DNA of 64,000 bases from Halosimplex salinum (GTDB lineage: Archaea; Halobacteriota; Halobacteria; Halobacteriales; Haloarculaceae): positions 186,001 to 250,000 of the forward strand of contig NZ_QWGG01000003.1 of the NCBI RefSeq assembly GCF_003730195.1. The letters run 5' to 3'. Positions 42,359 to 44,410 of this stretch are shown here, one piece after another. Made by a program: the position numbers and the translations under genes. The notes below the pieces were generated by a model. The model ran no database searches, was not told the DNA's origin, and saw only the letters and a program-made list of their open reading frames with translations. Numbering within the stretch: position 1 is the stretch's first letter; every line of letters starts with the position of its first letter.

Positions 42359-43360
42359 ATGGCCGGACCGGTTCGCTTTCGGCGGTCGACCGAGCGCTGG
42401 GACGAGGAGCGCGTCAGACGCGACCTCCTGGCCCCGCTCGAGGACCGCTTCGGCGCCCGACTGACGACGCCGAAGACCGACGCCCCCAAGGGGTACACCG
42501 CCCGACGTCTGGAGATGGACAACGGCGACCTCGCCCTGTTCGTCTGGAACGACGACGGCGCCTACTGGCTGGGCAACACCGTCACCCCCGAGACGCTCTG
42601 GCGAACAGAGAAAGAGACCTTCGAGGAGGCTCCCTTCGCCGTCGGCCGCTGGGCCCAGCGCGAACTCACCTACGACCTCCAGCGCCAGGCTCCCTGGCTG
42701 GCCTCCTTCGAGTACGTCTCCTGGTTCTTCCTCCCCGTCCTCTTCTCGAAGGACGGCCGCGAGACCACCCGCGCCTTCTTCGACCGCGACGCGGCGGGCT
42801 TCCCCGACGCCACCCGCGAGGAAGGGCTCGAGTTCTACGAGCGGTTCCTCAAGACCGGCGTCCTCGACGACCACCGCTACACGATGGCCGCCAAACTCGG
42901 CACCAGCGAGCGCAACGAGTTCGGTCGCATGCGCGCCACGATGGGAGAGTTCAACGCCGCCAAACTCCTCGCCGACGCCGGCATCTCCTTCGTCCCCGAG
43001 TCCGAACGCGACTCCGGCCACGCTCTCGACTTCGTCGTCGACACCCCGCAGGGCGAGCGCCTCGTCGAAGTCACCCGCCCCATGGCCCCGCGCAACCGCC
43101 CCGCCGGCACCGCCATCGCCGCCCTCCGGCGCACCGTCGACTCCAAGACCCGCGACCAGCTCGCCATCCACGACGAGGCCGTCCTCCTCGTCGACTGCAC
43201 CTCCTTCCGCGACGACGAGTGGAACCCCATCCGCGCCGAGAAACCCTCCCTGGGCTACGAACCGACCGTCGTCTTCCGCTACCGCCCCGACGGCCACTGC
43301 GAAGGCTATCGCCACGGCGACGTCCCCCTCGACCTCGACGCCGGCATCGAGTGGGTCTGA
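42359..43360 (+). CDS. DUF5784 protein, nuclease-like fold possible
   Basis: The 333-residue protein belongs to the haloarchaeal DUF5784 family. The N-terminal half has conserved aromatic segments (LFVWNDDGAYWLGNTVTPETLW, YVSWFFLPVLFSKDGRETT). The C-terminal half has an AKLLADAGISFVPESERDSGH, then ALDFVVDTPQGERLVEVTRP pattern, similar to the D-x(n)-E-x-T/K core of PD-(D/E)XK nucleases, although the usual Lys is replaced by Thr. A nuclease role is only an idea. A TGTTTACC element 27 bases before the ATG suits a leaderless transcript. Confidence 0.83.
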   Translation: MAGPVRFRRSTERWDEERVRRDLLAPLEDRFGARLTTPKTDAPKGYTARRLEMDNGDLALFVWNDDGAYWLGNTVTPETLWRTEKETFEEAPFAVGRWAQRELTYDLQRQAPWLASFEYVSWFFLPVLFSKDGRETTRAFFDRDAAGFPDATREEGLEFYERFLKTGVLDDHRYTMAAKLGTSERNEFGRMRATMGEFNAAKLLADAGISFVPESERDSGHALDFVVDTPQGERLVEVTRPMAPRNRPAGTAIAALRRTVDSKTRDQLAIHDEAVLLVDCTSFRDDEWNPIRAEKPSLGYEPTVVFRYRPDGHCEGYRHGDVPLDLDAGIEWV

Positions 43361-43458
43361 CCAGAGGAATTTCTGCAGTGGCGCACGCTGCCGAGCGTGC
43401 CGAACGACAGTGAGGCCGCGAGGCGTAGCCGTGCGAGGGATGAGCGACCGCAGGGAGT

Positions 43459-43660
43459 GAATCGGTTGGGGAGGTGTGAGGCGCGGTGCTGTGCGAGTGC
43501 GGACCCTGGCGGACTGAAAGGGCGAGGCGCGCTCGCGCTTGTGCAGTCGTCTGAGCGACCGCGAGAGCGAGGCGCGACCACCGGGAGCGCCTCGACATGC
43601 GAACGGCGAACGGAGTGAGCCGTGAGCGAGCGCGCCGAAGGCTTTCGATCCCTACTGCCG
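43459..43660 (-). repeat. Dispersed intergenic repeat, copy B (inverted relative to copy A)
   Basis: Bases 43554-43597 and 43504-43536 are exact complements of 7072-7115 and 7178-7210, and 43459-43494 matches 7225-7260 with two mismatches. Weaker similarity continues to about 43660. The copy begins about 100 bases after the DUF5784 stop. No inverted termini, target duplications or encoded transposase were seen. Confidence 0.85.
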
Positions 43661-43689
43661 AGCGCAGTCGCTCTGGAACGAACTTCACT

Positions 43690-43850
43690 ACCGGCGGGAT
43701 TTGAACCGGAATCAGACGTGCTCGCTCACTTCGTTCGCTGTGCGCGACTGATAGGGTTCAAACCCACGACGGCGTCCATCGAACTCAGCACGCGGCGCGA
43801 TGAAACGCGCCGCTTGCCAGTTGAGTTCGAAGAAGCGCCCGAGGCGGGAT
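43690..43850 (-). repeat. Tandem tRNA-flank repeat, copy 1
   Basis: This copy aligns with 43903-44066 over about 160 bases. It includes a hairpin: outer arms 43779-43787 and 43822-43830 (TCGAACTCA/TGAGTTCGA), inner arms 43792-43799 and 43806-43813 (GCGGCGCG/CGCGCCGC). It ends with CGCCCGAGGCGGGAT (43836-43850), the 3' end of tRNA-Asp. Oriented as the tRNA is transcribed, it is the distal copy. Confidence 0.8.
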
Positions 43851-43902
43851 CGAGCAAACGCGAAGCGTTCGCGAGGGTCGAGAGACGCCCGCGGCGTCTC
43901 TC

Positions 43903-44066
43903 GGGATTTGAACCGAAGAGAGACGTTCCGGGTCGCTCACTCCGTTCGCTTCCCGGGCTGCGACTCTCAGGGTTCAAATCCCGGTCGGCGTACACCGAAC
44001 TCAGAACGCGGCGCGATAAAACGCGCCGCTTGCCAGTTGAGTTCGGAGAGACGCCCGAGGCGGGAT
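43903..44066 (-). repeat. Tandem tRNA-flank repeat, copy 2 (adjoins tRNA-Asp)
   Basis: This copy contains the same hairpin: outer arms 43995-44003 and 44038-44046 (CCGAACTCA/TGAGTTCGG), inner arms 44008-44015 and 44022-44029. Relative to copy 1 the terminal pair changes from T-A to C-G, so pairing is kept. The hairpin begins six bases after the tRNA 3' end, and the last 15 bases of the unit are part of the tRNA gene itself. Confidence 0.82.
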
Positions 44067-44124
44067 TTGAACCCGCGTCACGACCGTGACAGGGTCGTAT
44101 GATGGGCCACTACACCACCCGGGC
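44052..44124 (-). tRNA. tRNA-Asp (anticodon GUC)
   Basis: On the minus strand the 73 bases fold as a tRNA: acceptor GCCCGGG with CTCGGGC and discriminator G, T-arm GCGGG-TTCAAAT-CCCGC, and an anticodon arm CGACC-CTGTCAC-GGTCG giving anticodon GTC, which decodes aspartate GAC/GAU codons. The discriminator G73 is an aspartate identity element. CCA is not encoded. No intron is present. The downstream flank carries the tandem repeats. Confidence 0.95.
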
Positions 44125-44410
44125 ACGCATTCATCGCTTTGCCGGAGTTGGATTTAAGACTTTCCAAACGATGGCCTCCGTGACACGCGAACCCACCCCA
44201 GCCGCCGCGCCCGAACAGCGACAGATCGACCGATAGCTAATACTCAACTGACAATATAGATGCACCCACCTGACTGCTAATTCACCGATTCTAACCGGAC
44301 ACGCTTCCGACATCTCAGAACTGATAACATCAGCGGAACTTACTTGGGTACCGATCGCTCTTTGTAGAGATAAGCGGAGTTACGTCGGATACAACTCCGG
44401 AGACATCGCC
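44125..44410. other. Intergenic region upstream of tRNA-Asp and the DUF7504-like gene
   Basis: This 286-base region is less GC-rich than its surroundings and contains no supportable gene. It should hold the divergent promoters of tRNA-Asp and the DUF7504-like gene. No clear operator or repeat was recognised. Confidence 0.5.

Follow-up and report, generated by a model that had tools for sequence, protein, structure and literature searches.

In E. coli K-12, the rtT repeats of tyrV form an array in which all three copies contain the last 19 nt of tRNA-Tyr with 0 mismatches, at a spacing of 178 bp. To our knowledge, rtT-type repeats are known from tRNA-Tyr only, and we know of no established mechanism for them. 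Among mobile elements, casposons insert at tRNA 3′ ends, recognize the motif TCAAATC, and duplicate their target without harm to the tRNA (PMC6614799, PMC4046053). The MITEs, PATEs, and SMRs of Haloquadratum are short, transposase-free mobile repeats that often bear palindromes and are thought to be moved in trans (PMC3119063).

How does the locus considered here compare? It lies in a window (the whole stretch of DNA that was analyzed) of 64 kb from the 5.07-Mb genome of Halosimplex, hereafter G000, in which two head-to-tail copies with a spacing of 216 bp (43744-43850 and 43960-44066; 87% identity over 107 nt) stand downstream of a tRNA-Asp(GTC) gene, both on the minus strand (Table 1). The original prediction had reported two such copies, each with a two-tier hairpin of a 9-bp outer and an 8-bp inner stem, and we find this hairpin in both units; its start six bases past the mature tRNA end also agrees, 44046 being the sixth base after N73. 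The compensatory change claimed for the outermost pair is real, as the proximal copy has C-G at this pair where the distal one has T-A. The 15 bases of the tRNA-Asp 3′ end with which each unit was said to close are there in full in the proximal unit; the distal unit has kept the sequence given in Table 1 and lost the acceptor part. Overlooked at that stage were a larger second hairpin in each unit, the arms of which copy the tRNA T-arm, one in inverted (CCGGGATTTGAACC) and one in direct orientation (GGTTCAAATCCCG), and the presence of the same units behind many other tRNAs. The region folds far better than shuffled sequence (z -8.2). An Rfam scan of 43300-44400 returned the tRNA alone above gathering score, with no rtT match up to E=5, and the genes around the locus encode DUF7530, DUF5784, DUF7504, and a response regulator, with no integrase gene among the scanned neighbors.

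Table 1. Parts of the tRNA-Asp array, with positions in the window
Feature	Position	Strand	Basis
tRNA-Asp(GTC), host gene	44052..44124	(-)	RF00005 59.3 bits; ARAGORN
Duplicated segment, last 21 nt of tRNA-Asp (G53-N73)	44072..44052	(-)	
Proximal hairpin A: outer stem CCGAACTC..GAGTTCGG, inner stem GCGGCGCG..CGCGCCGC	43995..44046	(-)	sequence, fold
Proximal a′, inverted T-loop/T-stem copy (CCGGGATTTGAACC)	43971..43984	(-)	repeat search
Proximal hairpin B core, GAGAGTCGCAGCCCGG..CCGGAACGTCTCTC, tandem-GA apex	43915..43970	(-)	
Proximal direct repeat, half 1: G52/G53-T-loop-T-stem copy (GGTTCAAATCCCG)	43902..43914	(-)	
Nested second insertion within proximal direct repeat, AGAGACGCC..GGCGTCTCT + GCGAACGCTTCGCGTTTGC	43850..43901	(-)	
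Proximal direct repeat, half 2: T-stem 3′ strand, acceptor 3′ strand, N73 (ATCCCGCCTCGGGCG)	43836..43850	(-)	
Distal hairpin A, TCGAACTC..GAGTTCGA, compensatory T-A outer pair	43779..43830	(-)	sequence
Distal a′ (GGGTTTGAACC)	43755..43766	(-)	
Distal hairpin B core (CCTATCAGTCGCGCACAGCGAACGAAGTGAGCGAGCACGTCTGATTCC)	43708..43754	(-)	
Distal direct repeat, decayed (GGTTCAAATCCCGCC), acceptor part gone	43693..43707	(-)	

The proximal direct repeat is itself split by a nested insertion of 52 bp. Insertions of the same class are placed within the T-stem of direct repeats, between CCCG and TCCCG (AGAGACGCC..GGCGTCTCT..GCGAACGC..GCGTTCGC), and occur also in the repeats behind Arg-CCT (C11:746804), Lys-TTT (C25:38727), Ser-GGA (C21:144731), and the other tRNA-Asp (C11:47224); a related piece stands isolated at C22:370758 (L017). 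Given this class, it looks as if the direct repeats were insertion targets themselves. The units also generate long spurious open reading frames with GFEP/GFKP motifs that come from the inverted T-arms (window 43622-44089, plus strand), a likely origin of false hypothetical proteins in annotations.

A search of G000 with the two units found mainly 3′-flanking sequence of other tRNA genes. For 45 tRNAs of this genome, the flanking DNA was screened for copies of each tRNA's 3′ end under a strict criterion (the last 20 nt of the tRNA's own sequence, at most 3 mismatches, at most 350 nt downstream), and such a copy lies downstream of 17 of the 45 (permutation mean 0.9, maximum 6). Foreign tRNA ends matched under the same criterion in 1 of 1920 comparisons, and upstream and far-downstream control regions contained 0 own-end copies. 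If split and indel-bearing copies, tRNA-Trp, and a displaced tRNA-Phe array are counted, about half of the tRNA genes of G000 carry one to three units, the longest row being the three behind Gly-GCC. Unit-bearing tRNAs are those for Asn, Tyr, Ser, and Trp and, with two genes each, Lys, Gly, Thr, Arg, Val, Met, Glu, Asp, and Leu. The tie to tRNA-Asp alone that the original prediction had drawn is therefore wrong, since most tRNA species bear units; its question of whether copies follow other tRNAs too has a clear answer, in that they follow many different ones.

Two copies that had seemed dispersed and tRNA-less actually lie behind an intron-containing tRNA-Trp (L021) and a displaced tRNA-Phe end (L022), and the remaining tRNA-less matches have nothing in common but widespread haloarchaeal hairpins. 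In the tRNA-Phe case, an integrated element has apparently come to lie between the gene and its array of units (L022, G000 C28:2221; G000 C23:23424), and at the far end of that apparent element are a unit and two Phe 3′ ends. Hairpins that have GA mismatches in tandem (GCGAACGAAGTGAGC) are found in haloarchaeal intergenic DNA away from tRNAs (L023, L027, L028) and form the apex of the two unit hairpins as well. In a congener, G005, a 14-tRNA array on a 157-kb replicon (L265, C3:5500-10500) has no downstream units; this array is apparently repeated about 110 kb away.

The units share one plan, which consists of a T-rich leader with a hairpin A, followed by an inverted arm (a′), the core of a hairpin B, and the tRNA end repeated in direct orientation. 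They measure about 90-220 bp and have no coding capacity, and the listed units showed no terminal repeats in common. The direct repeat begins at G53 and ends at the discriminator N73, which makes 21 nt without CCA; the base that precedes G53 departs from the tRNA, and the copy fits the local tRNA, whichever tRNA that is. In a set of 102 units drawn from many genera, a′ shows complementarity to the T-loop and T-stem 3′ strand of its own tRNA at the variable positions 57, 59, and 62-65 (z 3.6 to 10.8 relative to shuffled sequence), and its complementarity to the acceptor strand is inconsistent; inverted arms do enter the acceptor strand in copies from Woesearchaeota and in some haloarchaeal ones (Lys, Thr, Arg). 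TTCAAAT T-loops are overrepresented among unit-bearing tRNAs in pooled data (p=0.012), with G005 alone not significant.

Median fold z is -5.2 for hairpin B and -2.6 for hairpin A, compared with -0.8 and 0 for controls. Among hairpins B of the most frequent length class, 97% of the cells in the core are paired, and both-side changes occur in 9 of the 10 core pairs, amounting to 47 such cells against a mean of 12 and a maximum of 20 in shuffles, while the mismatched positions of the core stay conserved. Asymmetric bulges, which might suggest an integron attC-like folded site, can be seen by eye. The fold scores and the covariation of hairpin B, with its conserved mismatches, mean that a folded single strand, be it RNA or DNA, probably matters.

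Comparison of congeners shows how units come and go. Units at Leu-TAA and Asn are filled in G000 and empty in G005, and the reverse holds for Leu-CAA; at all three, the flank that abuts the tRNA in the empty genome abuts the distal repeat in the filled one. At Leu-CAA, G000, G003, G004, and G007 are empty, and G005 and G006 are filled at the same base. The number of units at Leu-TAA is 0, 1, or 2 across congeners, and both number and type vary at the orthologous tRNA-Asp loci. Like core families recur behind different tRNAs and across genera, with arms that follow the local tRNA. Additionally, the arrays are polarized: of 38 arrays that have two or more repeats, 20 show the greater divergence in the distal repeat, 2 in the proximal, and 16 show no difference (p=1.2e-4, an optimistic value, since the arrays come partly from related species and are not fully independent). 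Precise filled and empty sites, together with polarized arrays, bear out the earlier suggestion that units arose by a duplication that took in part of the gene, or were left behind by recurrent site-specific integration. An instructive case is Leu-TAA of G000, where the present tRNA (TTCAAATCCCCT) is matched by the direct repeat but a′ agrees with the allele of the congeners (TTCGAATCCCAC); either gene conversion makes the repeat track the tRNA, or a relative was the source of the unit.

Among named genomes, matches to an inverted T-arm hairpin pattern come mostly from Halobacteria, and about 60 of the first 80 loci directly follow a tRNA and repeat its 3′ end, in most cases with no more than 1 mismatch in 20. 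A wider pattern is present in 262 of 292 Halobacteria genomes and 71 of 76 genera, a presence that is understated because pattern searches see units only in part, and the reversed-pattern control gave 0; in other words, about 90% of the sampled haloarchaeal genomes bear units. In the other classes of the phylum, the pattern appears in only 4 of about 236 genomes, near chance level. Actinarchaeum halophilum, which carries it, is placed by NCBI in Halobacteria as Halocatena halophila. Two Woesearchaeota genomes have the same anatomy with other cores behind Ser-CGA, Ile-TAT, Val-TAC, and Asn-GTT (L317, L319, L321, L322), and 277 other Woesearchaeota genomes gave no match to the pattern used. A viral collection yielded 11 pattern matches, 0 with unit anatomy; several of these are palindromic tRNA-half sites of a Bifidobacterium type, and others resemble coding-sequence or low-GC matches. 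Near-perfect palindromes of tRNA 3′ halves (CCAGAGG..GGTTCAAATCCATGCCCCGCTA and its inverse) occur in Verrucomicrobia and in Bifidobacterium/prophage contigs (L085, L087, L299-L301, L303).

What, then, are these units? Because they appear and vanish between related species, we favor, as reasonably probable, the explanation that they are mobile, non-coding tRNA-3′-end cassettes, two of which were inserted behind the tRNA gene of the window; such turnover suggests a type of mobile element, so far undescribed, for which tRNA genes serve as docking sites. Insertion would occur beside a functional tRNA gene, through one cut at the T-loop (52/53) and another, some two helical turns away, behind N73, so that 21 nt would be duplicated and the tRNA left intact. 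The newest unit would adjoin the tRNA, older units being displaced outward, where they would decay or drop out through recombination between repeats. The donor structure is likely the fold of hairpin B, in which mismatches and bulges are conserved, and it may be recognized as a folded single strand; the inserting enzyme would have to act in trans, as the units contain no gene. The fit of a′ to the local T-loop and T-stem could come about by copying or by hairpin-templated correction, the latter a guess. Of all steps, this tailoring of a′ to each tRNA is understood least, and simple insertion with target duplication does not account for it. Other objections to mobility can be raised: precise empty sites could be explained as precise deletions between 21-bp repeats, but states vary both ways; the polarity could be mimicked by gene conversion between the tRNA and the nearest repeat; and strong covariation is equally expected from RNA function.

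The last objection deserves attention, for the units might be functional structured RNAs, i.e. co-transcribed trailers in which hairpins A and B serve 3′ processing, termination, or a tRNA-linked small RNA, and in which selection keeps both the fold and the tRNA match. The strong covariation of the hairpin B core, above that of shuffles and with its mismatches conserved, keeps this explanation in play, as do median fold scores below controls for both hairpins, the predicted folds, 15 of 18 of which have a′ paired to the direct repeat instead of the tRNA, and the annotation of the analogous E. coli repeat as the ncRNA RttR. About half of the tRNAs have no unit, however, the number of units ranges from 0 to 3 among congeners at one locus, and identity to the acceptor end of the tRNA is not in itself required by an RNA role; overall, we consider the RNA explanation unlikely. 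Alternatively, the units could have arisen in situ, through template switching during replication or repair at highly transcribed tRNA genes (by a dumbbell or a quasi-palindrome), with no mobile element involved. The order of the parts, direct-inverted-direct with a hairpin at either junction, is what one would expect from such events, and a′ does follow local T-loop variants, but the same core families stand behind different tRNAs in different genera, the boundaries are invariably G53 and N73, and the phenomenon is nearly restricted to Halobacteria, all of which makes template switching improbable. The dumbbell model (a-hpA-a′-hpB) in particular is weakened, given that a′ fits the T-loop and T-stem and not the acceptor strand, although some inverted arms (Woesearchaeota; Lys, Thr, Arg) do enter that strand.

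Two explanations invoke known integrases. The original prediction had considered att-site relics beside integrases, that is, attL/attR remnants of large tRNA-targeting integrative elements with tyrosine integrases, the bodies of which were deleted. Archaeal integrases often target tRNA 3′ ends (PMC8371274), and an integrated element apparently separates the tRNA-Phe of G000 from its units; nevertheless, the units are non-coding, too short for integrase genes, and located at about half of the tRNAs of one genome independently of any neighboring integrated element, their two-hairpin anatomy of 90-220 bp is uniform at about 20 tRNAs, and the scanned neighbors of the window locus include no integrase. 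Moreover, an integrase element carries the 3′ end of its single target, whereas the units fit every tRNA, so a tyrosine-recombinase circle becomes less likely, as one element would need the right 3′ end for each of them. We regard att relics as very improbable, and of the earlier interpretation, duplication or repeated integration is supported, the att relic is not supported, and the exclusive link to tRNA-Asp is wrong. Less probable still, to the point of being hard to credit, is insertion of the casposase/Cas1 type, in which a Cas1-family integrase would read the T-loop motif TCAAATC and duplicate its target. The casposase of A. boonei does recognize TCAAATC in the 3′ end of tRNA-Pro, with duplications of 14-15 bp (PMC6614799), and polarized arrays recall CRISPR growth, but the duplication seen here is 21 bp and at other positions, and some Cas1-positive genomes lack the pattern. 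Cas1 is found in 101 of the 292 Halobacteria genomes, against 262 with the pattern; it is absent from G000 and from 191 of the 292, so the units do not require it. Docking of the same kind by an integrase unrelated to the casposase is possible.

Returning to mobile cassettes, one may take the idea further and propose, tentatively and with more doubt than confidence, that tRNA genes of haloarchaea and a few Woesearchaeota lead polarized arrays that resemble those of CRISPR and integrons; that a class-wide, trans-acting integrase other than Cas1 docks on the T-loop and inserts folded hairpin cassettes with a 21-bp duplication; that the inverted arm is rewritten for each tRNA; and that E. coli rtT is a bacterial relative of the process. 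If the cassettes are mobile, haloarchaea possess an unrecognized integrase system, and tRNA genes are universal, harmless landing sites with a built-in time order; if the units are RNA elements, archaea have a new layer of regulation in their tRNA trailers. We found no description of the units in the open-licence literature; an account in a subscription journal is possible.

Set beside the known systems, the haloarchaeal units share features with several. Casposons are gene-bearing, kilobase-sized elements with terminal inverted repeats and a 14-15 bp duplication, and their target overlaps only the last 4-7 nt of the tRNA, whereas the haloarchaeal duplication comprises the 21 nt from G53 to N73 and G000 is without Cas1. 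With MITEs, the units have in common precise filled and empty sites, but MITEs, PATEs, and SMRs, as described, have no tie to tRNAs, no tRNA-derived repeats, and no polarized arrays. As with archaeal tRNA-targeting integrative elements, a direct repeat of the tRNA 3′ end lies beyond the insert and the upstream tRNA is intact; those elements, however, are large and gene-bearing, come one per specific tRNA, and lack an inverted tRNA copy. The original remark that no name is known for the element was nearly right, in that the rtT repeat of E. coli tyrT/tyrV is the sole close anatomical relative that we found. Like the haloarchaeal units, rtT/RttR repeats are tandem and non-coding, stand behind a tRNA gene, and each close with a copy of the tRNA 3′ end, and the tyrV unit also carries, upstream, the tRNA end in inverted form (GGGGAAGGAT/ATCCTTCCCC, 10 bp), which closes a large hairpin. 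A unit of like make also lies behind tyrT; bacteria thus have this anatomy too, at one tRNA species. The rtT units differ in that they are near-identical, are confined in E. coli to that one species (two genes), and repeat the last 19 nt including CCA instead of G53-N73; the haloarchaeal units follow most tRNA species and have two hairpins, modular cores, and species-level turnover. The anatomy common to both turns a single-locus curiosity into a general, testable phenomenon.
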